DNA from: Pempheris klunzingeri
Taxonomy: Eukaryota; Chordata; Actinopteri; Acropomatiformes; Pempheridae
Reading direction: 5' to 3'
NCBI RefSeq assembly: GCF_042242105.1
Contig: NC_092013.1
Location: 14,191,618 to 14,255,617 of the forward strand
Length of the DNA: 64,000 nt
The translations under genes were made by a program, and so were the position numbers. Positions 6,024 to 55,200 of the stretch are shown here, piece by piece (position 1 is the stretch's first letter; each line of letters begins with the position of its first letter). The notes under the pieces are model-generated. The model saw only the letters and a list, made by a program, of their open reading frames with translations, had not been told where the DNA came from and did no database searches.

Positions 6024-7500
6024 TCATACCTTGAAGGGATAGTCCTGTATGTAACGCAGCAGAGGCCTCGGGAGTGGTAGCTGGTCAGGGCAGTCAGAGT
6101 GTCTGTTAATGACGAGACGTGTGAGGTGCTGTAAGGACGGGAGACCCTGGGGCTTGTACACGGCCCGCTTCAGTTTTAACACCACAGACGACTCCTGTAT
6201 TGTCTGCTGAGAGGGTTTCGTGAGAGCGTCCTCCTCCACCTTCCCCTCCTCTGCTTTTGTCTTTGGTCCCATGTAGTGCTGCACCAGGCTGGGCACGTTG
6301 GGGAAGGACGACAGGCTGGGCCGGGCCGGGGAGCTGGAGTCGAGCAAGAACTGGGCGCCGCTGTACTGGATCCGTATACTGGTGGGGCCGCGTGCGGTCC
6401 TGACCGAGAGGGTCAGCATGTACAGAGGGTGGCTGCTGTCCCGTACCAAGAAGGCTCCTTCAGATGCCTCTTGAAGTGCAGCGTGGGCTTGAGCCGCAGT
6501 TACAGCTCCCCAGTACCATCCTACACACACAGATTCCTGAATATTAGTCACTCTGAACACTGAGTACTTTTCAGTGTCCTTCATGTTGAGCTTCAGTTTG
6601 ATCCTGATTTTAAGAGTTAACAGCCCACAGTTATGTAATTTAATGACACCTTTTACAACAGAAAATGAAATGTGCCAAACAGAGCCTGGAACAGTTCGAG
6701 AATGTGAAACACTTTTCATACTGTACCTGAATTTTCTAGATAGCAGAAGTTGCTGGCGATTGCCCGCAGGTCTTTTGTGGGGTCCCATAGCGGAGGGGTG
6801 CTTTGAAGGCAAGGGGTTGGAGGTACCGTTCCTGCCCGCATGCCCCGTGGGGCTTCAGTGGACGGAGCAACGGGCAGAGAGGCTCTAGGACTGGAAACAA
6901 GGTGGAAAATATGGTTTTACTTTTCCATGTTAACACAGGAATCCACATCATGTAATATTTACGGCTCCTTTTTTTAAAAAAATTGCTGGATAAGAACAAA
7001 AAGGACAAGGAAGAAGTAGAATAAAAGAATGACTAACTTTCCCGTTTGAACTTGAGAACAACAAAATGTAAATGTTTTGTCCAGTTAATTATATTAAAAT
7101 CACATTTTTGCTTAATTCTCATTTTGTGGTGAATTTTGTGTGATGTGTTTTGTTGTTTGTCTCACTTTAAAATAACATGTGATTCTCAGTCAAGTTTTCC
7201 TGGCTAAATAAAAGCCAAAGAAAAAAAGCACTGTATAATTACTACTTTTAGTAAGTAAATAGTTTCTGATGAGGACCATTTCTAGTGTTTTCGATTAGTC
7301 TAACCACATACATTTGTGTATATCTCTGAGTGTAACAGGCCTTTGCATTTGGCATTGAGAATAAGTCAATGTATTATTTACAAACCTTACATATAACATA
7401 TAACATTTACAAGTAGAATGAAATGTCCTCAACACGGTCAACAAAGGAGAACACGGAGAAACAAAGAAAAGTGAACTCACCCTGGTACACAAAGAATCAT
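6024..7500 (-). CDS. cish: Cytokine-inducible SH2-containing protein (CISH)
   Basis: CISH is an inducible feedback inhibitor of JAK-STAT5 signalling. Its SH2 domain docks on phosphorylated cytokine receptors and its SOCS box recruits an elongin/cullin-5 ubiquitin ligase. Three coding exons (7481-7500, 6727-6890, 6024-6520) join in phase to 226 residues. The first exon encodes only MILCVPG, very like mammalian MVLCVQG, which fixes the start. The SH2 domain runs from about residue 62 (GWYWGAVTAAQ) to 145, with FLVRD placing the phosphotyrosine-binding Arg at 88. The SOCS box occupies the last 39 residues (LPSLQHLTRLVINRHSD to DYPFKV). The human protein is slightly longer, mainly between SH2 and SOCS box. 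The minus strand promoter lies near 7.9 kb. Confidence 0.95.
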
Positions 7501-22686: not shown

Positions 22687-25600
22687 TCAGTCATCGATGG
22701 TGGGGAGCCAAAATGCCTGGAAGGTCAGCAAGCATTCAAAATCTTGAGTCACATTACAAACATTTTAATTTGCTGGTGTTTTTCTGTGTGTGTGTGTGTG
22801 TGTGTGTGTAGTCTGTAAAGGTGAGGTGCCCTAGTTTCTTTCCCTTTTTACTTGAACCAAAAGAAACGTATCAGATTTACTGTCATGCTGTGTTGCTTTC
22901 TATTTTCACCTGCGTCTGCTGACAGGAGAAAATGAATTTAACTCTAAACTCAGTGCCGTGACAAGCTCACAGTCACTCACACGCACGGTTAACAGTTGTA
23001 TCAAGTATGTATGGTTTCACATTGTGGGCATCAAGGGTGTTATGAATGACACAGTAAGAAGTAGATTAAATCCATGAAATGCTCTTTTTAGTTACATCAC
23101 ATTACATAAACATGTTATTGGTGCTAAATTCCTTTTTTAAAAAATGTGTTAAACTACCTAATGCAGCTTCAGAACTCATCATTAAGGATTCATACTTCAG
23201 TAAGCTTTAGTCCACACTCACCATGTTGGAGCAGGCACTTGCAAACGTCATGAACTTGGGGTTGAACTGCAGGCACGTAATCGGCCCTGTGTGCTTCCCG
23301 TCTAATAAAGCCACCTTCATACCGCTCTCTGCATTCCACACGTGGATCTTTCCGTCCTCAGAGCCTGAAATATAACAATGATATATGGACATTTGATGAA
23401 AACATGACGGCCAACTCCTGCATTCTTTAAAGAATGCCTTTATTTGTCAAATTAATGATATTATAGATGATTTTAAGTTGTACAGATTAAGTCAAAATGT
23501 TGGTGTTATTCCTTCCATAACATAATGTGTGAATGTGTTTCCAAAACTGAAGACAACAACAAGAGAGAAATGGTGATCATAACTTACCGATCATAACAAA
23601 CTGAGAATCCGGAGTGAATGACGCCTCCAGTGTTACACCTTTACTGTTGTTGTAGCCCTGTGGGTAAAGGAACAGGAGCGTCCATGAGCAAGTATTTTCT
23701 GCACATTGGGACTGCCAACTGATGCTCGCCAACTTTTAAAAACCAGAATGAGAGCTCAAAAATGCCTTCACTGTTTTAATATGTGGAATTAAGTAATTGA
23801 TTTAATCACCAGTACGAGGGGTTTTCCAAACTTTGGTAATTTTCTCTGACACTGTGCTTACAGTGTGATTTAGATGTAAATTTGTCTCGGTGTTCTTTTC
23901 AGGATATAAATGTTTCCACACATCATGCGTGACGACGAGAGGTCTCTTACCCCAAAGGAATGTAGCACAGCCCCCTTAAAAGCATCTAAGACGCGAAGGG
24001 CTCCACCATTAGTAGAAAGAAGAATGAGTTTTCCGTCATTGCTAAACTTGAGTCCAGTCCACTCGCATGTCCGGTCATACTGAAGCTTGAAGGTTGCAAA
24101 GGGACCCTGTTGACATGAGGGATCGTGAATATAAAGCTATTTCCTTAAAATATTAGACAAATAGGCATCGTGAGTGGTCTCTCTCACACACAAAACAATT
24201 CTTACCTTGTCAAACGACCGCAGATCATAAAGTTTCACCATCTCTGAATTTATTCCAGCAGCAAAAATGAGGCCCTCTGGATCAAAGGAGCACACTGGCT
24301 TCCCCTGCAGGTGCATCAGACCCTAAGATTGACGAAAAGAGACAGTCAGTATCGGTTTTATTCCTTATTCCTGATGCTCACCAAATCACAACAAACAGGA
24401 CCCACCTGGCAGTTTGGGGACCGCAAATCCCACAGCCTGATTGTTTTATCTAACGAGCCAGAAATAAATGTGTCATCCACAGGAGACATGGAGAGAGACG
24501 TCACTCTGGTCACAACAAAACAAGGAAAAATGAGAACAAGAGAACTTTCATCTCAACACTTAACATCAAATCCAGGCACAGACAGACCAGCATAAATGCA
24601 GTTCTCACCTTTTGTTATGTCCGGGAAAGTAGCGGATGTATTTGTTGTCATGAAGAGACAGGTACCGGATAGTATCTTTAAAAATAATAACACAATAACA
24701 ATGTCACACATCAAAAACGTCCAGCAACAGCAAGGACCAAGCTGGCATCCAAAAATGAAGTGTTTATAGGCGGGTCTGATGAGCTGACTCAACCGTGGGC
24801 AAGGCAGTCACTTGTACAGTTAGCTCCTGTATGGGGCAGAATCACAGACCCTCAAACTGTACAAACAACTACCTCAGACCAAAGTGAGTAGTGTGTCCAC
24901 CGTGATCCAGCGGTGGTCCGCAGGGGTATGGCGTCCAGTAAACATCAACCACTGTCATAACACATATAATACTGACGAATACATCATGTCAAGATGTTTG
25001 GATTTATTTTATTAGATTGATTGAGATATAAATGTTGTTTCTGCCTGTACTACAGTGAAGCACTTTAATCCTGTGAACGTACACAATAGTCCTAGCTGAG
25101 TGAAATGCACATTAAATAACTGGCCCTATATTGCCATAATTAGTGACCACATATTTCTCATCATCATGCATATTACACATGCATCGAGGCAAAAATATCA
25201 TTCCTTGATGAATCTAATAGGCTACACCAACATTATCTCCTTGAGCACAAACTGAAACTTGTTCATGCTACGTTACCAAACAAAAACTACCAACAACTAT
25301 TTGTGCATCAACATACCATCAATTTTGTTGGAACTGTAGACCACAGTGTTTGCAGCATGTGTGTACCGGATCAGATCCACTCCATACTTTTTACTGTAGA
25401 GGGTCCTCTTGGGTCTGCCATAAATCACATAATGTAAGGGGAAAGGAAATTAGTGAGTAACCACTTTAATCAATAAAAGATATCAAATTGTGCTGGCAAA
25501 TAACCTAGTCCCTAATCATGACATTTATTTACTTTTAAAGAAAATACCAAGACGTCAAAAGTTAAAGCCTTAGATACTCTTTGATTTAAATCCTTATGTA

Positions 25601-26520
25601 CCAAATACTGAGAGATGTTTTTGGCTACAATGGTCAGCAAATTGGAGACACTGCATTGAGCTCTGACATTTAATTATGAGCATGTATTGTTTTAACCCAT
25701 AAAAGAAATAAATACTGATCACGGAGAGGAAGCAAGTAGCAATTATGCTCATTGTTAGTTACTTTATCTTTTAATAGATCAGCTATTTGTTCCACAAAAT
25801 GTCAGAAAACTGTAAATAAATGCCTGGCACAATTTCAAATAGCTTGTTTTGTCTACCCAATGCTCTACAACACCATGATATTCAATTTGCAAAGATATAA
25901 GACAGAAAAATGCAGATTAGTTCACATTTGAGAGGCTGGAACCACCAAATAAACTAAATTACTATTTGGATTAATCAGTTACCACAATATCAAAATTGTT
26001 GGTGATTCATCGCATGTGAATCAACCTATCAATTCAACACTAATCGCAATCTTGGCCTCTCAATCAAAAATACTGACGATTACATTACTTACTTTCATTA
26101 CTCCACCAGTGTTGGGATTTTAATTGTGCAACTTTGTCGAGTAATTCTAACAGATTAAGACCTACTTCTAACAGTATATCAAGCTACTAACAAACATAAA
26201 TTTGGATGTTGCATGTGTTTTCAGACTGATGCACACAGAAAGGTTTCATCTCATACAGTCGCTGCAGAGTATTATCGCAGTGCAGCAGGCCTCGCTAGCT
26301 AACATAGCAAGGAGCTAACGTCAAAAACAAGAGAGGAAAACGGACAAAACGGCTCTTACTTTCCCTCCTGGCAGTCGTACAAGACCAAGGAATCGTCGTC
26401 GCTGCTGGAAATAATTGTTTCTCCGTTTGAACTGAAGTCGAAGCAATTAATTTTGTCTGAGTTTTCTCGAAACACCTTAGCAACTCTGAAGCTCCGCAGC
26501 ACATTGTCCGTCAGCTTCAT
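22687..26520 (-). CDS. wdr82: WD repeat protein WDR82 (SET1/COMPASS and PNUTS-PP1 subunit)
   Basis: WDR82 is a nuclear WD40 protein that links the SETD1 H3K4 methyltransferases to RNA polymerase II phosphorylated on Ser5, and is also part of a PP1-PNUTS complex in transcription termination. Nine exons (26360-26520, 25317-25414, 24609-24675, 24406-24505, 24206-24322, 23951-24106, 23588-23657, 23222-23364, 22687-22716) join to exactly 313 residues, the human length. Start [11 protein letters not shown] and end FWLPTIDD match the family, as do [51 protein letters not shown] and [18 protein letters not shown]. The last exon codes only nine residues. An intron carries a let-7 hairpin on the same strand. 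Its promoter faces rightwards towards a small candidate exon at 27087. Confidence 0.97.
22785..22809. repeat. (TG)n microsatellite
   Basis: About 25 bases of TG dinucleotide lie in the last intron of wdr82. Confidence 0.9.
24797..24880 (-). ncRNA. let-7j: let-7 family microRNA precursor (let-7j/let-7g type)
   Basis: The minus strand carries TGAGGTAGTTGTTTGTACAG at the start of a 22-nt mature sequence (24855-24876), with the let-7 seed GAGGTAG. The 3' arm CTGTACAAGTGACTGCCTTG (24799-24819) pairs with it, and the loop contains TGAGGGTCTGTGATT and ACAGGAGCTAA, closely following the human let-7g precursor. The mature strand differs from let-7g at one position (T for A at base 10), which as I recall is zebrafish let-7j. 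It lies in the wdr82 intron between exons 25317-25414 and 24609-24675, sense to the gene; human let-7g is also in a WDR82 intron. It is probably processed from the wdr82 transcript. Confidence 0.93.
25765..26045. repeat. Damaged copy of the ATTAATC/ATGTCAGAAAA repeat
   Basis: Phrases such as 'ttccacaaaatgtcagaaaactgt', 'acaccatgatattcaatttgca' and 'gattaatcagttaccacaatatcaaaat' match the body of the TIR element seen at 315-2297. The terminal repeats are eroded. It lies in the first intron of wdr82. Confidence 0.5.
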
Positions 26521-27149: not shown

Positions 27150-29122
27150 GTATGAACCAACTTTATTAAATATCAAGAGCGCGCACGTTTGGTGTAGAAG
27201 ATCGACGGTAACCACGGCAACGGCCATGAAACGTCACAACTGTTCAGGCTCGTGTCAGTAAAAATAGAATCCATCAGTTCGTGGGAACGTTCGATTCATC
27301 TTTAACCTTAACATTCTCTGTATTTTAAATTCAATCAGCAAATGTTAAGATAACGAGTGGTATGTTCAAAAACCTGTGTGCAAACCTGACAGCTGCTACT
27401 TGCTGAGGGGTGTGTGGTCATGTCCAGTCTGGTCTTCCCTGCATAAAAAGGATACGTTTTGTGAGATGAAAGGTTTGTCATGACAATGACATACACTAAA
27501 AGTAGGTGATGGTAATAGCAAACAAATGTTGATGTTATGTTTATTTTAGATTTTATAAATTATGTACTGTAAGGATACTAGGTGTGGATACAATCCTCTA
27601 TCACGGTACTTGTAGTTTTATTTGATTATTTGTATAAGTTTACTGCATGTCGTGATTAATACATTTTCTGGAAAATTAAAATTGAGAAATGTTCAATAGA
27701 TAAAATAAGCATATGAGGCTGTCTGTTTTGGCTCATCTAATACTTGTTTAATATTGGTCCAAAAGTCATATTGAAATGAAACATTGCTATTTAGTAGTCC
27801 TGCTCATTGAATTCTGAATGTCCACAATAGCCTCATACAACCAGAGATATGAAAGGATAAGACACTGATGATTGACCAATTTGCAGAAGTACTATTTCTT
27901 AGGGTATCTCAGGGTTTATAGGTGTCTTCACCAGTCAAAGAAAGCAAGACCTGCAACCAGTGTGCATATGAATTCAGAGTAAACACGCACCAGGTTGTGT
28001 ACCCTTTGAACTATGCACCATCAAAAGCTCCAAAGTCTGCCAGGTACAATGCTCATAAGCCGTGTTCACCGTCATACCAGAACATCATTAACTTCTTGTG
28101 TCACAGAACTCTTGTTTTGATGACCAAGGGACTACACAGAGACAAATGCGCAGTTGGCTGGTCACTTGTTTGATGTGTCCTGTGGTGCACTCAAGTCAAT
28201 CATTACACACATGGTACACAGTTCCAGTCGACCCCTGGTCACATTTTGCTACACTGCCTGACTACTGAGCCGGAGTGCACATAACAGGCTTCTGCAGGAA
28301 TCCACAGGCTTTACATCCCATTTGCAACATTCACAGGTAGGCAGCCTTATGAGTCTTCTAAAGAGGTTTTACAGGGGAATGTGTAACTGGCTTAGGATAA
28401 TCAGAAATCTATAAAAATTTGGTTTAATCTAAGGACAGAAAGTAGCCAATGTTTTCTTCTCAGCCTTTAAAAGTAAGCTGACACACGATACATTTATGTG
28501 AGTAGAATAGGTATACCACACACTCCCAAAGTCTTCAGATTTACCCACAGGTCGGCAGAGCTACCAATCTGTGAAAAGACTGTACAACTTATTAACCTGA
28601 AGTATAATATTACTATTTAAGCATACATCTTATATGCTACAAATGTCACTGGCATTTTAATCTTCAAACTGATTCCTCTTTCAAAGCACCATTATAGTAA
28701 GTAAAGTTGTGCCAGTCCCTCACCTTGACATAAATTTCCTTTTCAACAGTAATGACCTGACACCAACACAATCAATGCCATAATATAATGAATTTTGATA
28801 TATTGAGTCCATGCTGCCAGTTAGAATTGCAGAAATGTCAGTTCTTTGGAGAAGATTAGTGTGCACAATGATGAATAACTGAATATACAGCTAACCTTCT
28901 GATTCTTCAAAATGTATTTGAGAGGTAAAAGTGTCCGTCAAACAACAAAAAAGATTTGTGAATTACTGTAGAGTATCTGACCTTTTCCTCTCTGCATATT
29001 GTCATATTCTGTGTGTGTGGTGTTTTTAAAAGATCGAGGTTTTTGTGGTAACTGGCTTTATAAACTGTGGTTTGAATTCTTAATCCCTCAGACAATTTCT
29101 GCTCAGACCTACTGAACTGTCC
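27150..29122. other. Spacer between wdr82 and glyctk
   Basis: No recognisable protein is coded here. One 83-codon plus-strand ORF (27922-28173) has no family features. No repeat that I can name is present. The 3' part contains the glyctk promoter and 5' UTR. Confidence 0.4.
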
Positions 29123-30968
29123 ATGGCCCGTGTTCTTTCCCTGTTCCGGCCTCAGCCCTTTCTGGCCCTCGCGGGCAGGAGAAAACCTACATTGTGCAAA
29201 ATGTCAATGGACTCACGGGCACGAGAGGTGTTTGCAGCTGCAGTGGGAGCTGTGCAGCCAGACGCCGTGGTCCGGCAGAGTATAGTGCGCAAGGAGGACT
29301 CAGTCACTATCGATGGTCACAAATTCACACTTAAACACAACCTGCACTTGGTGGGCTTTGGAAAAGCTGTGCTGGGTATGGCTGCCGAGGCAGAGAGGAT
29401 TGTGGGGGATCACTTAGTGAAAGGAATAATAAGCGTGCCACATGGGATTCAGCAGACATTACAGCAGCATGGGAAAGTGTAAGCAAAAGTCCTAGGATGT
29501 TAACATGTTTAAGTATTACACTAAAAATAAGATCATGTAGCATAATATATGTTTTTCTCCTCCATCACAGCCATCTGTTATTAAAAGAAAACAGTTGCAT
29601 CAAAGTAATGGAGGGAGCTAAACACAACTTGCCTGATGATGATGCCCAGAAGGCAGCTGAAGAGATCAAGCAGTTAGCCAGTAGCCTGACGGAGAAAGAC
29701 CTGCTACTTGTACTGATTTCAGGTAGACATCCTTATTTTCTTTTTCTTTACAAAATCATACCTTGAAATGTAAATCTTCAATACAAGGTGGCGAAATTTT
29801 GTCTAGGTGGAGGCTCCGCGCTATTACCTGCGCCTATTGCACCAATCTCCTTGCAAGAGAAACTGGAGGTTACCCGCAAACTTGCGGCTGCTGGTGCCAC
29901 TATTCAGGAACTGAACACCGTGCGACGCGCCCTGTCATTCTTGAAGGGCGGAGGGCTTGCACAGTTTGCTCACCCTGCCCAGGTAATATCCTTTTCTTTA
30001 TTCAACATTTTATTATGGGGGAGAACTCATTCCTGCGTTGTACCTCCAATATCACTCCTCTATTCACTACTTCACAGGTGGCTGGGCTGATATTGTCCGA
30101 TGTAATTGGGGACCCTCTAGACTTGATCGCCAGTGGCCCCACAGTGAATAGTGAGGTGTGGCCTGAGGAAGTTTTGTCAATCCTTGAACGTTACAAGCTG
30201 TTGGAGTCTCTACCAGCCTCAGTAAAGGATGTCCTTGGGAGACCACATCCCCGTGGGAGTGAGAATATGGATAAATCCGATACGTCAGGACGTGTTCTCA
30301 ACGTTGTGATCGGCTCCAACAGCGTCGCCCTGAAGAGCGCAGGTCTCCGTGCTCGAGAGCTAGGTTTCCGCCCTGTCGTGCTGGCACCAGGAGTGTGTGG
30401 TGATGTAAGGTCAGTATCCAGACTCTATGGCCTCCTGGCTCGCTTCGCCTGTGCTCGAGAGGAACCTCCTCCAGAGATTGCCGCTGAGGTGCTGAGGCTG
30501 GGGCCTGAAGTAGGTGTGGAGAGCTGGGACCTCTGCCGTACCATGCAGGTCTTGGGTGAGGGGCGTACAGAAGGATGGGGCTCCACGTGTCTGTTAGCTG
30601 GAGGGGAGCCCACTGTGGAGCTGACAGGTAAAGGTAGAGGTGGTCGAAACCAGGAGCTGGCTTTGCGAGTGGGACTGGAGATGAGAGGCATGAAGCTCCC
30701 GCCTAATGGTCCTGTGTTCCTGAGTGGTGGAACTGATGGTCAGGATGGGCCCACTGAGGCGGCAGGGGCCATCACTGATGGGGGGCTGTATGAAGAGGCA
30801 CAGGCACAAGGACTGGACATAGACAACTTCCTTACCAACAATGATTCTTACACTTTTTTCACACAGCTTTCTGCTGGGCAGCGCTTACTTGTGCCTGGTC
30901 TAACCTGCACCAATGTGATGGATGTGCATATGCTTCTTATTCCACCAATTCCCATTAACATACATTGA
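29123..30968 (+). CDS. glyctk: Glycerate kinase (GLYCTK)
   Basis: GLYCTK phosphorylates D-glycerate to 2-phosphoglycerate in serine and fructose catabolism; its loss causes D-glyceric aciduria in humans. Four exons (29123-29478, 29571-29722, 29807-29982, 30078-30968) join to 524 residues, against 523 in human. Residues 1-30 are Arg-rich without acids ([20 protein letters not shown]), as expected of a mitochondrial presequence; a second in-frame Met ([12 protein letters not shown]) could give a cytosolic form. Landmarks in order: [77 protein letters not shown], then the MOFRL-type C-terminal part with [26 protein letters not shown] and [23 protein letters not shown] follows at 30980. The wdr82-glyctk adjacency is shared with human. 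Confidence 0.97.
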
Positions 30969-31445: not shown

Positions 31446-32634
31446 CAGTGCTGTGAAAAAGTATTTGCCCCCTTACAGATTTCTTCTGTTTTTGCTTTTT
31501 TGTCACACTTACATGTTTCAGATCAAATTTTAATATCAGACATAGATGACCTGAGTAAACACAAAAAGCAGTTTTTAAATGATGATTTTATATATTAAGG
31601 GACGAAAGCTATCCAAACCAACCTGGCCCTATGTGAAAAAGTAATTGCCCCCTAAACCTAATAACTGGTTGTGTCACCCTTGGCGGCAACAACTGCAATC
31701 AAGCATTTGCAATAACTGGCGATGAGTCTTTCACATCGCTGTGGGGGAATTTTGGCCCACTCTTCTTTGCAGAATTGTCTTAATTCAGCCACATTGGAGG
31801 GTTTTCGAGGATGAACGGCCTGTTTAAAGTCATGCTACAGCATCTCAATCGGATTTAAGTCCGGACTTTGACTAGGTCACTCCAAAACCTTCATTTTGTT
31901 TCACCTTGGAACTCTCCCATGGAGGCCATTTTTGCCCAGTGTCTTTCTTATTGTTGAATCATGGACACTGACCTTAACTGAGGCAAGTGAGGCCTGCAGT
32001 GCTTTAGATGTTGTTTGGGGTTCTTTTGTGACCTCCTGCATGAGACGTTGATGCACTCTTGGAGTCATTTTGGTAGGCCGGTAGTCCTGGGAAGGTTCAC
32101 CACTGCTCCATGTTTTCTCCGTTCGGGGATAATGGCTCTCACTGTTGTTCTCTGGAGTCCCAAAGCCTTAGAAATGGCTTTGTAACCCTTTCCAGACTGA
32201 TAGATGTCAATAACTTTGTTTCTTGTCTGTTCTTGAATTGCTTTAGATCGGGGCATGATGAGTTGCATTTTGAGATCTTTCAGCCTACTTCATGTTGTCT
32301 ATTTAAGTGATTTCTTGATTCTACAGCTCTGGCAGTAATCAGGCCTGGGTGTGGCAAGTGAAATTGAACTCAGCTTTCAAAAATGTGGTTAATCACAGTT
32401 AATTCATGATTTAACAAGGAGGGGGCAATTACTTTTTCACATAGGGCCAGGTTGGTTTGGATAGCTTTTTTCCCTTAATAAATGAAATCATCATTTAAAA
32501 ACTGCTTTTTGTGTTTACTCAAGTCATCTATGTCTGATATTAAAATTGGTTTGATGATCTGAAACATGTAAGTGTGACAATAAAGCAAAAACAGAAGAAA
32601 TCTGTAAGGGGGCAAATACTTTTTCACACCACTG
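31446..32634 (-). mobile_element. Internally deleted Tc1/mariner transposon
   Basis: The element is bounded by TA dinucleotides and has long inverted ends of about 210 bp (31446-31652 and 32422-32634), beginning CAGTG and containing GTGAAAAAGTATTTGCCCCC. On the minus strand, 32065-32268 encodes a transposase N-terminus (MPRSKAIQEQTRNKVIDIYQ, then YKAISKALGLQRTTVRAII), the paired-type helix-turn-helix. The other end of the coding region survives at about 31670-31840 (HDFKQAVHPRKPSNVAELRQ, then QRCERLIASYC). The central DDE catalytic domain is missing and a TAG interrupts the C-terminal piece, so it is non-autonomous. A second pair of GTGAAAAAGTAATTGCCCCC words sits at the inner edges of the two arms. 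Confidence 0.92.
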
Positions 32635-34360: not shown

Positions 34361-35140
34361 TTAATCTCGATGAGTCTTCAGGGTCTCTCCTGCTTTGCTT
34401 TGCCTGTAAGAATAACAGAATGTCATTACAATCAAAACAACTCAAGAATCAGTCATGGTAATGCAATCCAAGTATGATAAAATGTCTATAATGCTATCCA
34501 TAACCACACCATCATCAGTGATATATTGACAATAAATGCTACAGCTTCAGTTAAAAGGGCATAATTACACTGTATTCATTCAACTTTACAAGTAAAGGCA
34601 GTCTCCCTTAACAATCAGACGCTCAGTCAACCAGGAGGCAGATATAGTTTTTACTACAGACTGTAGTAAAAACCCTGGACACTCATTCCGCACTGATGGT
34701 GACCCATCCCAGATGAGGCCTCAGCGCACCAGACCGTGCGCGGAGGGTTTTCTACCTGTTTGAAGGTACATGGGTGCTCGGACACCTACCATCCGCTCAG
34801 GTGAGGCGCTGTCTCAGGTGTGCCTCCGTTCTGTCCGGCCCCTGAACATCAACACCAACACACAGACATGAAGCCAACGTGGCTGCCACTGGTTTAGCAA
34901 TGATGCAGAGGAAGTGTGTGAAGGCTCACCTTGTCGATAATACATATCGTTCACCGTGTTCCCGTAGACTTTCCACGCGAAGTGAATTGCGATTAGACTG
35001 AAAATCAACCAGCTGAGTAGTATTTTGAATATGGAGACTCTCATGTCGTTGGCGATCCAGTCGTCAACAAACTCAGAGAGGAAGGACAAGCAGCCGTCAG
35101 CGATGCGGGACAGAAACTCAAAATCCCAGGGTTCCTCCAT
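34361..35140 (-). CDS. Small single-pass membrane protein, unnamed
   Basis: Exon 1 (34930-35140) opens MEEPWDFEFLSRIADGCLSF and continues SEFVDDWIANDMRVSIFKIL. A hydrophobic segment (about residues 43-59, LLSWLIFSLIAIHFAWK) is followed by VYGNTVNDMYYRQ. The donor is GTGAGC. Exon 2 has two possible acceptors 14 bases apart: the nearer (exon 34361-34389) gives a tail ETLKTHRD and 79 residues; the farther gives GKAKQERP. A minus-strand AATAAA at 34266-34271 closes the gene. The sequence looks conserved (no low complexity, acidic helix then a membrane span), with the C-terminus probably on the opposite side from an acidic N-terminal helix. I do not recognise the family and assign no function. Confidence 0.65.
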
Positions 35141-36904
35141 AGCGTCCGTTTATTCAGCTTATATGAGATCAAGTGTGAAGTATTTATCCGGTAGATTCTT
35201 TCAAAAACATCGCATCGGCTAGGTAACGTATGACATCCTGGGCGCCATTTTTACCGTTACGGTGTTTGTTATCAGCGCAGAGAAGTGAAGAATCCGAGCT
35301 GACGTAACTTACGTCGCGCAGCCGCGTTAGCTGTCAGCAACAAACATCAGTGTAACATTTCTTGTTACTAAACTACACTTTCGATTATTGCTTTCAAAAG
35401 TGTTTATGTTTGCGCAATATATCCCATAATGCATTACGTTTTGCAGTACAAAACTAATGCTGCTACATGCCACATTTGTCACCTTAAGCGTTCACTTCAC
35501 AAACCTCGGGGGAAAATGTAAACATTCATGAATAACCTGTCTCCAGCAGCGGGCTCCATCTTCAGCTGTGCTCATGTTACCCCACACATGTTTATTGTAT
35601 GTCAGGAATCACACAATTTGAGTCCAGAGCGAAACTATCGTTAAAAACGCAGCATTTCCACGCTAGCTTTAGCAAGCCTGTGCAGAGTGAAACATCGGTT
35701 TTAAACATGAGTGTTGGGCCGGTCAAACATTTCACAGGTCAAACGGACTCACAGCAAACCTATTTCAGATGAAGAAATTGCAGCTAAAGATCCAACCAGC
35801 TCCGGAATAAGTGGTTAAAAAATAACTGGTGTTTTTTCTCCCTAAAGTTTTGTAGGGAGCAGTATGAGAGCGCAAAGAGGGCACGGATGTAGCTACGTAT
35901 CTTCACTAAAAAGCAAGTAACAATCCCTAGTTTGCAACCTTTATTATGTAAAGCGATACATTTAGTTTATGTTTAATTCCCGACGGTGTTCAATGAATTT
36001 GGCCAAACCATCAAAACATCCCAAAAAATTACTGGAGGTTTGGGTTTCCTAGCTACAATTTACGTTACTGTCTCACGCAGCGCTGCGTAGAGCGTAGCCT
36101 GAGGGGGCGGGACTAGTGGTGGGCACCGAGCAGCCTGATTGGTCAGCTCATCTTGTCATCAGAGATTCCGGATGTCTGCTGTGGTAAGAGGAAAATTTGT
36201 TTTCTGCTTCTCATTCTTGACAGCTTGTTTGCGACCCGGCTGCTGCTGAAAGTTAATGTAGCGATTTAGATATTTAACGCAACGTTTCGACGGTACGAAA
36301 TCGTAAGTTTCATTCTTTGTCTTCGTCTGTCTAGTTATACTTGACCACGATTGCTTTGCATGCTCACTGTTGAGCCAAGGCCATGAAATTGATCTGTATG
36401 TGTCGCTTGCTAGCAGGTAATGTTAGCCTTGAAACTACATCCACCTGGTTGCATCGGAATTCACAGCTAAACATTTATCAGCTCAGAAAAGTAAGACTCC
36501 TCGACGTTGAGCACGTTAGCAGACAAGCTAACACTGGCTTTATAAGTAACTTAAGCTAGTATTAAACAAACGTTAGCTCTGTAGCTCTGGCGGTCAAATA
36601 CTTTCCGTTTATCTGTAGTGTAACATTAGCCTGGCTGCTCGAAGTTGTAATCAGGCTTTGGTTCCAGAGTCTGTTTGGTATCTTGGAGTTGAAATTCTCC
36701 TATGTAACCAGTTATCCTCTGTTATCATGTGACCTGCCCACTGGTCGAGTATAAGTGCTCCTATTCATCAGAGATTGAGATGCACGCTGTCTCAAGGGTT
36801 CAGCCACAACCAGCGGAGTACATTAGTTATTAAGCAGTTTATTCGGAATTGCTTGGTAATAGTATTTAACTTTTTAATCTATCTCCAGTGACTGGGATGG
36901 TATC
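35141..36904. other. Divergent promoter region and mon1a 5' UTR
   Basis: The small membrane-protein gene (-) and mon1a (+) are head to head. GC-rich DNA near 36070-36300 probably holds the mon1a transcription start and a non-coding first exon; a splice acceptor (ctccag) at 36888 precedes the coding exon. No other coding sequence is seen. Confidence 0.4.
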
Positions 36905-39900
36905 ATGGAGAGAGACAATCATCAAGAAGGAGAGGCACAGGGAGTAAAGATTTGTGATCCACCCTCTGAGAGCAATCCAGCTGGTAAATAATTTAATCTC
37001 TCATTAAAGCTAGTCCAAATTTCTGCTCACATGTCTTCGTTTTTATGATGTTGTTAATAATTTAACTTTGTTTTCGTCTTAGCTGACACCTTGGCGACTT
37101 CTCTCTCCCTCTTGGGGAATCACATGTTTCCTGACCCGGTGGAGAGAAATGACAGCAGCACTGCTAATCAAGAGGAGCCTGCAGATTCACTCCAGTTAGA
37201 TGTTACAGCAGAGGAGCAGAGTCTGGATGCAGAGCCCCCATCTAACCAGGTAACAAAGCTAGAGACTGAGGAGACAGAGAGCTCAGAGTGTCAGGACCAC
37301 ATGTCCACCCAGTCGTCTGACAGAGGAAACGAGGATGCTGCCATTGACAGTAATCAGAGCGACTCTGGGGAGTTTGTCGTTACAATGCTGGCCAAGGCCA
37401 AGCTGGAGGAGCAAGGTATAGGTGTGAAGGGAAGGTCATCTCCCTTGTTGGAGGCAGGCACCCAGGAATCTCCTGCATTCATGTCTCACCGTGATGAGGA
37501 TGTGACAGCAGACAGCTGGCGGCAGCACCGGAAGCATGTTTTTGTGTTAAGTGAAGCAGGCAAACCCATCTATTCCCGATATGGCAGTGAAGAGGCCCTT
37601 TCATCTACAATGGGAGTCATGATGGCACTGGTTTCCTTTGTTCAAAGTGGAGATAATATCATCCGCTCAGTCTATTCAGGTGAGAGCATTTTCTTTTTTT
37701 TTTAACTTTTGTAACGTAATTGTCGATGTCATTTTCTATTTACATAAATGAAGGATTCAAGAATAGAGTGGAGAAACTAATTATCACCAATCAACAAAAA
37801 GTGCTGCACCATAGAGAATAATGATAGTAATAATAATACATTTTATTTATAATGCACTTTACATTTGGAGGTACAAATCTCAAAGTGCAACAATTAAAAA
37901 ACACAAGACATTTAAAAAGCAACAGCATTTAAGGACGCAGCCTAAAAAACAACATAAAAGCAGATAAAAGAATAGCGTCTGTAATACTAAACACAAGCAG
38001 AAGTCTGCTAATTTCCAAGTCCACAACTTGTGCGATATTTCCGAGTGCAGAGTTGTCAATCACTGTTAGTAGACATCCACTGTTGCCTCCTGCATTATGC
38101 TCATTACTTACTGATAACTATTTTCTCCCTTCCATCAGAGGAGCACACCGTGGTGTTCTTACAGAAAGGGCCCCTAGTGCTGGTGTGTGTCTCTAGCAGT
38201 CGTCAGTCCGAGCGGCAGCTGCGTGGAGAGCTCCTCTACGTGTACTATCAGATCATCAGCATGCTCACCCAGGCCAGCATATCCCGCATCTTTGAACACA
38301 AGAAAAACTACGACCTGAGGAGACTCCTGGCGGGCTCGGAGAAGATCCTGGACGGTCTTCTCAACCTGGTGGATTCTGACCCCAGCTTCCTGCTAGCAGC
38401 GGTACACTGCCTGCCTTTAGCCTCCTCTCTCAGGGACTCTCTCAGCCAGATCCTACAGAAAGCGATCACCCCAAATCTGGTTTTCTCCATCCTCATTGCC
38501 AACAACCAGCTGCTCACCATTGTCCAAGAAAAGACAGTTATCGAGGACACCAGGCTGGAGCCCGCTGATGTCCACCTCCTGCTCAACCTCATTGGAGCCT
38601 CCTCTGCCTTTCAGGCTGGGGAGATCTGGACTCCCATCTGCCTCCCCCTCTTTAATCCTGACTGTTACTTTTATGCATACATTTCTTACCTGGACCCTCC
38701 AGAATGCACTGTTTGTCTGCTGCTGCTCTCGACAGACAAGGAGGCTTTCTACGCTGTAGCTGAGTGCAAGAGGAAGATAGAGGAGGCCATGGCAGCTCAG
38801 AACTCCCTGAGCCTCATTGCCAAAGTTCAGTCGTACAGTGTGAGCCAAGTGGGCGTCTCAGACCTCAGACACTTCATGTACAAGCCCTTTGACGTACCAG
38901 ACAACTACCGCCAACTCACTCAGTTCACCAGGTGTGTGTGTGTTTGTGTGTCTGTCTGCACTTTGCAACTACAGCAGGGACACATGAGCTTAAACTTTAT
39001 GTTAAAAAAGGGGCTTTTGTATAATATCTCAACATTAGTTGCACTGCATGTAGAAAACTTGGCGAGACATTTGTCTTGCATAAGACCTCTTTTTGTTTTT
39101 AAATATTAGTTTGTGATGTAACATGTTCGTAGTCTAAAGAAAAGAGAGAAATATTTTACATGAAGGCCACAGCAGTATAAATACCTTGTGTAAGAGAAAT
39201 TGTGAAAGCCCATTTATTCTTAAGAAAAATTACAGCTTAGTGAGGTTGGTATTTACAAAGAAAAGTGTTCTGTTTTTATATTGGGTAGTTCAGAATGAAA
39301 GTGTTACTGAAATGGAGCTTCCAGTTACAAAGGCACAGAGAAATAAAGATTCTATGAAACTTAAATCTTCTTCCACTAATCCTGTCAATTCCCTTCGCTG
39401 ATCTCTCACTGAGCTGAACTGAAAGCATTAGGTGTCCTATTACATAAACCAGCAGCCAATAAAAACCTTGAAAATTAATGCGAAATTACAAATAATAATA
39501 ACAAATCGCAAACAGTACACTTAAAATAATATTGATAATTTTATTTACATATCACTGTTCAGAACAGATAAGAGGAAAACATTTCTTTTCTTTAAAAGCT
39601 GTGTCAACTTAGTTTCATAAATATCAAAATCAGTAGTTTTAATGGACAATATAAACTTTATGTTTTAATATATTTCTGTATCTTTTAAAAAAAAAAAAAT
39701 CTTTTACCATTTGTTGCTGTGTGTAGCCCAGAGATGGAGGCACCGTACAGCAGTGAAGAGGAGAAAATGAGACTGCTGGACCTTTATCGTTATATGCACA
39801 GTCGCATCCACAGCACCTCACGACCCCTCAAGCTCATCTACCACGTCGCTGAGAGGGAAACTCTGCTCGCCTGGGTATGTAGCTGTGTTTACCGATACGT

Positions 39901-47800: not shown

Positions 47801-50800
47801 CTGGTTCATCTTCTGTCTTAGAGTGTTGATCTCCCGGCGCAGCAGCCTAATGCGTTTGGTTCGACCACCACTGGTACGCATGGAGGTAACCATGTCCAGT
47901 TTGTCCAGTAAGGCCTTTAGCTGTTCGTCTGTGTTTAAGTGCAGTCTGTTCTCCGGGTCCAAGAGAGAGTCGACTGCAGGGAGTATATGAAGAGAAACAG
48001 GAGAGGAGATGAAGGCAGATGAACAGATGAGGCATAAGGGTTATGTTCAAGAAGAAATAGCTAGTTCACACTCTCTACTCACCGTCCTCCCATGTACAGT
48101 GGTAGAAGCCATGCTTGTTTAGAGCTTCGGGGAGGTGCATCCCGGTGCTGGGGTCCAGGCCAATGCTCTGAGACTGCCTGTGGCTGTGACGGAGAATGGC
48201 TCCACCCACCTCCCGCAGCTGTAAAGCTGCCTTGTGAAACATGGTGTCCTTGGAGTTGTACTTGAGGCAGTTGGAGATCATGAGGTCAAAGTCCTTCTCT
48301 AGGTCTGCGATGGAACAGTAGGCGTGTCCCTCCAGTTTGGTGCGCATGGTGGAGAAATCCATGGGTTGGGAAATAAACTCCAGGTAATCTGGGACCTCAG
48401 TGAATCATGAAAATAAGACTGTTAGCCGAGGCAAAGTAAAGCCAAAGCAAATATGCTGCTGGATGAAAAGTGTGTATTTAAACCTATTGTTTTCTAACTG
48501 CACCAACCTCTGATAGGTTGACCGGCTGCGAGAAGATTTTTGCTGTGTCCTTCTCTTGCAGTTGGTCCAAGGTGGATCGCAGCAGCACCAACGCAGGGGT
48601 CAACTTCAATTCAAGAGCAGCCTGCTGAATTTTCATCTGAAGAATGATGACACAAAGACACAGGGGAGAGTAGAGGAAATTCAAGGTTACTCTTATTGGT
48701 TCAAATGAATAACATGTTGTGAGGAGACAAATGACGATGCTGAAAGGAGCATAAAAGCACGCTAAATAAATAGAGCTCGTCTCGTGACTCACACGTCCCC
48801 TGTAACGCACCTGTTCTCTCTTTAGCCTTTCTCTCTTGCGGATGAGTTCCACCAAAAGTCTGGCTCTTTCCAGGTCTTGCCTCAGCTTTTGCCAGTATCG
48901 TAGCTCCTCTCTTGCAGCACACAGCTTCTCGTCAGGCTCCTTCTGAACATAAAAAGGACACAGCAAAATTAATTAATCTTCTAATTCATAATCCATAAAA
49001 AAGACATAACAGCTTTTTTTTTTTTTTTTTTTGAGATGTGGGGAGATATATTCTGGCGTCTCAAGTATGCTCTCGTATACAATGGCAGGTTCCAGCTCTT
49101 ATTGGAAAGCTTATTTATTGGTCACAAAGTTTACCAGCAAAAAGAAAATCCTAACGATCAAGGCCAGACTTTTGGTTAAATGAGTACAAACTGCTTTTAA
49201 TGTGTAATTAATGTCTGTTCTATGTTTTCAATGTGTTTCAAAGAGTTTAAAGAACAGCAACAATGTATTATTATGCAATATTATTGTGGCTATTAATACA
49301 CATTTGCAATGAAATAATCTTTTATTTTTAATGTAATCAAATTCAAGTTGGGCAGCACTGTGGTGTGAATGTGAACGGTTCTCTTTGTGTATGCGCTGGC
49401 CCTGTGGTTGACTGGCGACCAGTCCAGGGTGTACCCCACCTCTCTCCCAGTGTCGGCTGGGTTTGGCTCCAGCCCCCCCGCGACACTTACGCATAAACGG
49501 TATAGACAAACAATAGATGGATGGAAATTCAAGTTGGCATTAAAAGCTCCATAAGCACATTACTGCCAAAATGCTGTCATAAATATGTCTTTTACAATCC
49601 TAACCACTGTGGATAAATCTAATAATCCACAGTGATTTTTTTAAACCCACATTTTATGGTTTGAACACCTTAACTCAGCTTAACGCATCTCCTGACATTA
49701 TAAACAAGTGGGCAATAAATTCAAACTGATATCCATAACCTTTTCCACGCTATCACGCTCTGGGGTTGTGCGAGATATACAGGAAAGATGACAGAGCTGT
49801 GAAGTGCTGTGTGGAGGCCTGCCATCTTCCTGAATCAGTCACTGCAAAGCGTGATGTCTGGGCTTATGTTTTGATTTGAGTGTGTGAGAATACAAGCATG
49901 GTGTGAAGTGGTTTGATTCCAGTGACTTGGCCGGCTCTCTGCCAATCATACTTAATTGGTTCTGTGAGGGCCCGATGCTCTATTAATGTAAAGCACTGTA
50001 GATGTATTAGGTTTAATCATGTCTGATGCTTCAAGACAAAAATCGATGTGGATACCAGTTTAAAACAAGTCTAAAATATGAGTCACATGTGTGAATGATG
50101 GTAAAACCACCGGTGCTTAGCTTGTAGTCAAGTATTAAAATGCAACAAATGCTAAAAGTGCTGACAGTCAAGTAGTTCGGCCCTTTGTCATTTAAAAACA
50201 CTCCTGTGAAACATCTCATTATCACAAAATCACGATCAAGCAAAGACACCACATAACAATCTACTGACTACTGTGCTACATTTGCGGTGGATTTGTTTAA
50301 TTCTCTAATTTTCATTTTAACCCACACACTGTACATCATCTCTCTCCACACCTGCTCTGTCGTCCTGTGGGTCTGCAGATGGGAATGAAGCCGGCGTATT
50401 AAAGGCATCCCATTTCGTGACTGTCGTTTCAGTAACCAGTAGTTATGAAGCCTCTGCATGAACTGATTCTTCCTCTGGACATCAACTCCTGTGCAGATCT
50501 TGTTCAGCCTGCGAGGATGTAACAATCATACATGACAGCCTGCGTTGTATTGCTGATGGTCGCAATAACACACAAATCATGTAAGGCATCAGTACATTTC
50601 AGAAAAATACTCTTGATGAACTAGAACCGAATTATATTAGAGATAGAAAAAATGTTTCAAATTATAATAATTATAATTAATATTCCTGGAGAAAGACACA
50701 AGAGCAAATTAATAAGGTATGTAAATTCTGACAGTGTGCAAAGATCACACCTGTGAGAGGGAATCTGAGGCACGAGCAGCACAGGCACAGTTGAGCGACG

Positions 50801-52249
50801 CGTCGACCCACCAGACCCCTTTGTATTCTTCTTCTTCTGGCCCTTGGTAGCCTTCTTGCTTGGTGGTGAGGGGGGGCTCTGAGTGTAGGACCTTTGACCC
50901 CGATTACCTCTTCCCCCCACTAGTCTTCCTTCAATCGACTCATCTCCAGACCCGTCCCGGCGTGACCCCACTGGAGAATGATGCTCACAGAAAGCAGTCT
51001 TCTTCACAGAGAAGGTGGTGCCGTTGACTCCCGTCTCCCGGACCGGGTCTATCTTCATGAACAGGCCAGCCTTCTGGGCACAGGTGACGTGAAAAGCCCT
51101 GTAACAGTTGGCCTTGTGGCACTGAATAGATGCTCCCCTGCCTTTCTGCTTACACAGGTAGCATGTGAGCTTCCAGCGAGCGGGAGGGATGTTCTTCACT
51201 CCCTCAACGGGCTCAAGAAACACCGTGTTGGCAAAGCACACCTCCGGGATCCATATGGCACAGACAACATGGGCCCAACGTCCATCAGTTGTCTGTTTGA
51301 AGGCACCTCCTCGGTTGGGACAGAGCACACAGTCTACAGGACGGGAAGGGGACTGCAGGCAGCAGCGGCACAGCCACTGACCCTCAGGTACGTAGGGCAC
51401 ACCGTAACACTCCTGGTGGACGGCCAGATTGCAGATGTCACAGAACAGGATGACATTACTGTTCAGACATTCGTCATCCAGACAGACGCAGCAGAAAGCG
51501 TCCTCGTCGACAGCGCTCTGGGACAGAGCCTGGCTACGGGACTCCAGGATGGATTCCCTTTCCAGGCGGTCGATCAGCAGTTCAAAAGTGTCTGGAGGCA
51601 CAGAAGCATGGCCGTCACACACTCTCTTTTGGTTCACCATCTCCAGCCAGGCCAGGTCCTCCTCGTCCATGTCGTACTCAGCCACACTGTCCTGTTCCTC
51701 TAGTGACTTTTCTATGTAACGATAGTAGGCTGCTGGCAGAGGAGGCGCCTCTGAGGGGCAGACTGAGCTCAGCGTACGAAAGGTGGGTTCAGGCAGAGGG
51801 TTTTGGTGGGACGGATGCTGGAGGGAGTTAGCGGGTCCTGTGTGTTGCTGAGAGCCAGACCGCTGGTTCTGGTGAGATGTATTTTTACCGCTCCTCCTGC
51901 TTTTATTGTTCGAGGGTTTCCTCCACGATCTGGCTTTACTCTGTGTTTGTTCACTGTTCTCCTTGTTGCTGTTGCACTCAACAATGTCCTGGGCCATCAT
52001 CTCATCCTCGGTAATAACCGGCAGAAGATCTGTGATGTTAATCCGATGGAGCCTTCCATCTAGGTCCACTTCCACTATTTTCTGTGCCTGAGCGTATGTC
52101 AGTGTCTCCCTGGATGGTGAGAGCTGCAATCTGTAGGGCGAGGGGGGCCGCGACGATCCCCTGCCCCTTCCTCTACCTCTTCCTCGACCCCTTCCCATGT
52201 TGAGTCTGCCAACAGCTGTGTCACATTCCCGCCTCCCCACCTTCCGCAT
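44803..52249 (-). CDS. brpf3: BRPF3, PHD/bromodomain/PWWP scaffold of MYST acetyltransferases
   Basis: BRPF3 scaffolds HBO1 and MOZ/MORF histone acetyltransferase complexes. Twelve exons (50751-52249, 50352-50508, 48811-48942, 48508-48636, 48083-48395, 47626-47973, 46643-47197, 46501-46558, 45646-45734, 45357-45430, 45071-45225, 44803-44986) join in phase to 1230 residues; human is about 1205. Order: EPc-like N-terminus ([15 protein letters not shown]); first PHD finger about 252-298 ([19 protein letters not shown]), zinc knuckle and second PHD to about 423; bromodomain about 605-705 ([24 protein letters not shown]); an acidic then lysine tract near 790; PWWP about 1095-1180 ([15 protein letters not shown]). 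[14 protein letters not shown] and the end [16 protein letters not shown] favour BRPF3 over BRPF1 or BRD1. [10 protein letters not shown] run at residues 19-31 is absent from human BRPF3, and Met18 is an alternative start. Confidence 0.95.
47235..47527 (-). repeat. Damaged copy of the GCTGCAACTA-ended repeat
   Basis: The right end reads CAGTTGCAGCTCTAA at 47513-47527, matching the right terminal repeat of the element at 315-2297, and the body has 'cagtcgattgatctt' and 'caattaattgatcatg'. It lies in a brpf3 intron. The orientation is that of the right arm, so the strand is uncertain. Confidence 0.5.
49345..49530 (+). repeat. Retroposon 3'-end fragment with GATGGATGG tail
   Basis: 'gggcagcactgtggtg', 'gactggcgaccagtccaggg' and 'gctccagcccccccgcgac' followed by 'aatagatggatgg' are the 3' end of an abundant fish retroposon. 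The same family occurs at 16150-16320. It lies in a brpf3 intron. Confidence 0.6.
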
Positions 52250-55200
52250 GGGAATTTACACCAGCTTCCTGACAGATACAAAGAAAGAAATTAAACATTT
52301 AACAATGGAATGACTTGGGATTGTGTGTCAACACTTTCCTCTTTTTGTAATCATCTATGAAGAGTTACAATAGCTGTTGAGTCTATAAAATCTGAAATCT
52401 GTATCTGACCTTACTGGGAAAAAAATATTTTGATATTAGGTTATTATCATATTAATAGCAGCAGAAGTTGACTCTTGAATTAAGTGCCTATGTTGGTGGT
52501 TTTATTGTGCAAAAATGGACTGGTGAGTAATTGTAGTGATCATTAGTGGTCAAAAGTATGATCTGATTTCCAGCTGATGAACCATTGTAGGACTGCCAAA
52601 GTGTGTTTGTGTGTGTGTCGATGTGTGTACAGTAATTTGGACAAAATCACACCAATGCTGCACATTACTTTAATTTTTACCTCCATGCTGTAAATTTTCT
52701 AGATTAAAAAATGCTACTGGGGCAAGACCTGTGGTTAATATGTTGTAAACACTTAATTATGAAATGATGCCTTTTTATAATGATAATTAACAAACTGGTT
52801 ATCAAATTTTGTTATATTCTGAAATCAGAGCTCAGTGTATAATGAATTTCATGTCAACCAGATAAATCATATTCCCTTATTTCTGCCAATATATAGAGTG
52901 CCGTCTTAATTTGCAGTTTTGGTCAATTTTGTTCTTTCGTTTCTTTTTAATGCTGGACACAACAGTTACTATGTAAACGGGGTCAGCTGTGGTGCTGCTG
53001 TAATAAAAACACAGCACGTTACCTCAAGTACTCCTGCTGCACAAACACAACTACAGTAAGTTGGACTGCTTGCATGCATCTCTTTCCATTGGTCCAATCA
53101 GGAGTCTGTAACGTTGCAACATTTCTCTCACACCAATCAAATGCCAGTATCCTGTATTTTTCCCCCTTGTTGCTGTGCATAGTTAGGTTGAGGAGCGCTA
53201 AATACCAACCCGAGTATCTAACATCTGTCAGCCATTTTAAGCGCACAACAGCAGAGACAACATTTGGACTGCGAGTTGATTAGCAGCCCAATTACACATG
53301 CCAACAGCAACCAGAAAGCAGACGCACTGTATGCACCGTGCCTAAATGCATAAATTAATTGCATGTATACATTAGATCACGACACTGCAAATATGCAGCG
53401 TTTTTGGGCATTGCTTTGTGGTCCAGACCCCTGCAAAAAGACTGTCTGTTGCTGATGTGATAACGTTAACGATACTCTGTCGGACAGGACGTACAGAAGT
53501 GTAACTAAACGGCAGATTTCCCGAGCAGCGCCGAAAAAGCTGAACATACCAGAGTGATTTACCTTGAAAAACCGTCCTCTGCAGTGCGAGAGCCAGACAG
53601 AGTAGCTGCTCCTAGCTAAATGTCAGCTAGTGACAGACCACAGCCAAGGCGGACATGCTAGCCGTTAGCTTAGCTAGCCGGTAATTTCTGGAGCGACAGC
53701 GTCATCTTCAGCACCTCGGTTTACCGCCGAGACTCCGGTCAGACACACAAACACGACCCGGACTCATGGCCACGGGTTTAACCTTTCAAACGAGGCTGGT
53801 TGGCAACTTGGAGGCAGCTAAATCCCGAAGATATCAAATTAATGTTCCTTGGATGAAGCTAAATATTCAGTCAAGATGGCTTGAAAAATACGCCCCTTTG
53901 GAAAAAACCACCTCAGCCAATTGCAGGTCTCCGCTTCGCTTCGCATTCAACGCGCACCACGTTCTGATTGGTCGGGGCGATACAACGAGTTCACCGAACT
54001 CAACCTGGAGCTCATCACAGACACAACAGATGACAAAAACAACGAGACGTATATTGCGCGCCTTATGGTCTCCTCATCATTTTCCTTATACCCCATATTG
54101 TACCTGTCACACACCTGCCAGTTTTAGGGAACATTGTTTTCTAAAACTTTCATGTAATTTCATTAAATCAAATTTATTTAGATTTTAACAATCTTTAATT
54201 CAATTGTAATAGCTACATAATAAAAAGAAAATAATATGTTCATACACACATTTTTAGTTTTACTTGTGTGGTTTGCAGTTCTGATGATGCATTAGCATAC
54301 GATAAAATGATAAGTGATATTTTATTTAATCAATTAACCGTTCAATTATGTCTGTAAATACTATGCAGGTTCACCATTTCCCTGGAACTAGTGGCCTAAT
54401 TTAACAAAACAATCCAAACTCAAAGTCCCCTTACTAATTTTTGGAGAGCTGTCAAGCAAATCACACAGTCTGCTCAGTTGTCATGGAGATGGGTCTGTTA
54501 ACATGTAAACTCTGTAGCTGCTACAATTGTATTTTTTGGGCTTTTTTTTAAAATCCGCAATAGCCGAAGTTCATACACGAACGTTCATTATTTCATGGAA
54601 ACCTCCAAAAAACAAGCAAGTGGACCTTGAGTTTGGATTGTTTTGTCAAACTTCTGTTTCCAAATGTCAAGAACGAACTTTCATGCTTGCTGAGATGCAA
54701 ATATTCAGGCACTGCTAGGATTTAATCCGCAGCACGTGTTGGCCCGTCCTTTTTCTAGAAAATAATACAGCAATAATGACTCAAAATAATATTCAGCCAT
54801 ATGATTTATTGTAGCCAATATTCCTGTAAGTCCAAAGAATCCATTGGAACACTATTTAGACGACAATGTGGGGAAATAAAATTTGTGTAAAAAATGTGGA
54901 ATCATTAACACAGTATTACTTATTAACTACACAAAGCCTTTGTACTTCCATCAGCTGAGTTGACAAAAAATTTCACCATTAGAATATGTGAAGCTAATTT
55001 TCTGACCTTATGGTTTTGTTAATAATAGATTTGACAAACCACCTAAACTAAACTGTGCTCCTCTACTGGCAGGAGTTGGTGAACTTCCTTCAAACTACAG
55101 GATGATCATATGTCGGGATGAGATGCCACTGTTGTACTATTTTACTTCTCATTTTACAGTTGGCCCAAATTAGCTTAAACTGCAGAACATAGACTGATGA

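Follow-up and report, generated by a model that had tools for sequence, protein, structure and literature searches.

The locus lies within a 64-kb window from Pempheris klunzingeri, by which we mean the whole stretch of DNA that was analysed. It combines a let-7 precursor hairpin with the protein-coding gene whose second intron contains it. The features are the following.

22687..26520, minus strand: wdr82 coding region, nine coding exons, 313 amino acids; spliced frame from ATG to TGA, 942 nt
24676..25316, minus strand: wdr82 intron 2, 641 nt, host intron of let-7; GT...AG borders between exons 2 and 3
24795..24882, minus strand: let-7 precursor hairpin of the let-7j type; Rfam RF00027 match and fold with z -3.28
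24855..24876, minus strand: mature let-7j-5p, 22 nt; identical to printed fish let-7j
24799..24819, minus strand: putative let-7j-3p strand, assigned by likeness to human let-7g-3p

Splicing the minus-strand frames by hand yields a coding region in which all eight introns have GT-AG borders. The predicted protein is identical to human WDR82 at 289 of 313 residues, a lead rather than a database test. When the 313-residue protein was searched against solved structures, the best match was S. pombe C824.04 (query residues 6-309, E 2.5e-49), which we take to be Swd2.2, a fission-yeast relative of WDR82. At a threshold of 1e-41 this whole-protein search returned three sequences, none of them a chain named WDR82, and at E 1e-60 it returned no match; exon 1 alone recovered general WD-repeat proteins. 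We use the name wdr82 because of the likeness to the human sequence, the match to C824.04 and the position of let-7g.

The let-7 hairpin, which the original prediction had placed at 24797..24880, is confirmed there on the minus strand. The let-7 family model RF00027 matches positions 24882-24795 over its entire length (model 1-84 of 84) with 65.1 bits (E 2.4e-11, gathering score 53.5). It is the sole gathering-level Rfam match in the 64-kb window, and relaxing the threshold to E values up to 1 between 15000 and 40000 revealed nothing besides let-7. The original prediction had held that ORF-based annotation would miss the gene; it is, however, by no means hidden, since an Rfam search finds let-7 at once. 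A degenerate let-7 pattern had one match in the window at up to three mismatches (this match has two); shuffled sequences gave a mean of 0.02 matches, with a match in 2 of 100 shuffles. The same mature pattern had 0 matches in viral contigs. As predicted, the segment folds into a stable hairpin: on the minus strand, 24882-24795 reaches -33.6 kcal/mol with a z-score of -3.28, and none of 200 shuffles was equally stable. The plus-strand reading of the 84 nt from 24797 to 24880 was rejected (-22.1 kcal/mol, z -1.28, 21 of 200 shuffles equally stable). The plus strand thus folds unremarkably and the minus strand well, so the choice of strand matters when the fold is repeated.

The finer structure also agrees with what had been claimed. 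The 22-nt mature sequence occupies 24876-24855 in the 5p arm and carries the seed GAGGUAG at positions 2-8. Mature positions 2-22 are paired without a mismatch by the 3' arm (the 3p strand plus two preceding A), five of the 21 pairs being G-U. The loop, described beforehand as let-7g-like, contains UGAU and GGAG, at precursor positions 33 and 50 respectively, as in human let-7g. Group II let-7 precursors, which have a 1-nt 3' overhang, are defined by a bulged U or A beside the Drosha site (PMC4742387). In the predicted minimum-energy fold of the window precursor, mature U1 and the preceding C are unpaired.

The mature RNA is familiar from other fishes. Letter for letter it is the let-7j printed for olive flounder (PMC3092494), marine medaka (PMC4211694) and zebrafish (PMC7893006). 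In tilapia it is printed under the pufferfish label tni-let-7j_1ss11TG (PMC5562739), and in whitefish one base shorter under the name let-7g (PMC4938405). The mature RNA has been reported in microRNA libraries or profiling of several fishes. The locus is of a known kind, and most of the facts about it are known already. Channel catfish let-7j-2 has a conserved sequence described in its 3' arm (PMC5372658). A goat let-7 family sequence is printed as GGAGGTAGTTGTTTGTACAGTT, which has U10 but a different first base (PMC8239366); for a mammal this is odd.

To place the hairpin within the family we aligned it with seven precursors: human let-7a-1, c, d, e and g as printed in PMC9792516, whose pre-let-7g we took as human, and Atlantic salmon pre-let-7g-1 and -2 as printed in PMC4938405. 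Human let-7a-2, a-3, b, f, i and miR-98, and every other fish let-7 precursor, lie outside this set, to which the following ranking refers. Salmon pre-let-7g-1 (79/84 aligned positions identical), salmon -2 (77/84) and human let-7g (67/78) resemble the window precursor most, and human let-7a-1, c, d and e reach 47 to 57 of 78-79. Outside the mature strand, agreement is 57/62 and 55/62 for the two salmon copies and 46/56 for human let-7g, whereas human let-7a-1, c, d and e match at 30 to 40 of 56-57 positions. The loop and 3' arm are therefore closest to let-7g, which supports assignment of the hairpin to a type nearest let-7g/j among the precursors compared. UGAU at 33 together with GGAG at 50 is found in the window precursor, in the two salmon precursors and in human let-7g; GGAG is present in all eight aligned precursors and is thus a mark of let-7 generally.

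The hairpin lies in sense orientation in intron 2 of the nine-exon wdr82 frame, 434 nt past exon 2 and 119 nt ahead of exon 3, in line with the predicted sense-strand position within a wdr82 intron. The human side of the comparison holds as well: PMC3675212 lists let-7g under WDR82 intron 2 for both mouse and chicken, and under 'intron 2, 3' for human. From the window together with these published positions and precursors, we consider it nearly certain that the window let-7j is the positional counterpart of amniote let-7g in wdr82 intron 2, a judgement that covers jointly its probable co-transcription with the host. The agreement in host, sense strand, intron and loop type makes inheritance from the bony-vertebrate ancestor much the best interpretation, and the predicted ancestral linkage of wdr82 and let-7 is well supported by these shared positions.

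An alternative is that a different let-7 paralogue entered wdr82 intron 2 independently in fish and that the shared host is coincidental. Fish let-7 genes are indeed numerous (one study counts 111 precursors from fish, PMC5372658), and their let-7 names are out of step with the human ones (PMC7893006). However, such an insertion would have had to reproduce the host, the strand and the intron of mouse and chicken let-7g, and it is also opposed by a loop and 3' arm that resemble human let-7g (46/56) more than any of the four other human precursors compared (30 to 40 of 56-57); we regard it as very improbable. The gene might also be a decayed let-7 copy that has lost microRNA production. CNNC and the basal UG are Microprocessor motifs, and the window precursor has no basal UG at -14, where UA stands instead, which would fit decay. 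Downstream of the hairpin, CNNC occurs at +18, and four more times within the first 30 bases, at +1, +13, +26 and +27; with extra CNNC and a missing basal UG, these motifs say little. Against decay stand the identity of the mature sequence with a fish let-7j reported as expressed, the mismatch-free pairing of mature positions 2-22, the 65.1 bits in Rfam and the open frame of the wdr82 host, and we give this explanation even less credence than an independent insertion. Descent from a common wdr82-hosted let-7 gene thus remains the preferred reading.

The surroundings point the same way. Past wdr82, the first further gene to be recognised resembles a glycerate kinase and lies on the plus strand (29084-30968, DUF4147 and MOFRL domains). 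In human 3p21, GLYCTK adjoins WDR82, and the arrangement counts for the let-7g counterpart reading. Human mir-135a-1 lies near GLYCTK; a miR-135a pattern had 0 matches with up to three mismatches in the whole window. A Pfam domain scan of ten frames, three of which had no Pfam match, also detected domain frames at 6024-6854, 34814-35149, 37061-39109 and 50657-52255, comprising SH2 plus SOCS-box, T-cell leukemia translocation-altered family, MON1/FUZ-type longin and EPL1/PHD frames, the last of which resembles BRPF1. These neighbouring frames suggest a conserved block. Overlapping frames at 31901-32289 on the minus strand look to us like pieces of a Tc1-type transposase.

Among open-licence papers, judged mainly by title and the start of the abstract, we found none that states the fish let-7/wdr82 linkage. 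The main text of a study of fish let-7 evolution (PMC5372658) does not mention wdr82, nor does that of PMC2427041, which assigns host positions to its supplement, and the main text of PMC8789304 mentions neither let-7 nor wdr82. The linkage may well be present in genome browsers and microRNA databases.

The main value of the locus lies in a naming point with practical effect, namely which fish RNA, let-7j or let-7g, corresponds to human let-7g. Zebrafish let-7g (ugagguaguaguuuguauaguu) and let-7j, as printed in PMC7893006, each differ from human let-7g by one base, let-7j at position 10. Because the distances are equal, the mature sequence alone cannot pick the human let-7g counterpart. PMC7893006 matched zebrafish let-7g with human let-7g; beside let-7j it prints a human sequence with three mismatches and no human name, marked 'Not used'. 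Host intron, position and precursor loop point to let-7j, and not to the fish RNA named let-7g, as the probable counterpart of human let-7g.

The position 10 change had been predicted, and A to U there is indeed the only mature difference from human let-7g. In human let-7g, A10 lies opposite a C, in both salmon copies U10 lies opposite a C, and in the window U10 faces a G and forms a wobble pair. As salmon also has U10 and keeps the mismatch, the simplest reading on these few sequences is that U10 arose first, the extra pair of the window being gained later by a change in its own 3' arm. That U10, at the Argonaute cleavage centre, gives let-7j its own extensively paired targets, non-redundant with other let-7 RNAs, seems to us improbable.

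Production of the RNA would be expected to follow the known let-7 pathway (Drosha processing, LIN28 on the loop GGAG, Dicer and Argonaute; PMC4742387). Lying on the same strand, let-7j is most likely transcribed together with wdr82, and Drosha/DGCR8 would excise the hairpin from the primary transcript of wdr82. By binding GGAG in the loop, LIN28 may restrain maturation in early development; Dicer would then free the 22-nt 5p strand, with which Argonaute would repress let-7 seed targets. There is no mechanistic novelty in this: the let-7 gene is real and old, ordinary in function and of a well-known kind.

Compared with known systems, the gene equals the let-7j of flounder, marine medaka and zebrafish in all 22 mature nucleotides. 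The Atlantic salmon precursors share its U10 but are named let-7g and have a C opposite that position, giving a mismatch, where the window has a G and a G-U pair. Human let-7g shares the WDR82 intron and has UGAU and GGAG at the same loop positions, but its mature strand has A10 instead of U10. Fish RNAs that bear the name let-7g can differ in setting: dre-let-7g-2 is listed in a cluster with let-7h, as is let-7g in two pufferfishes (PMC5372658), unlike human let-7g, which stands alone (PMC4742387).
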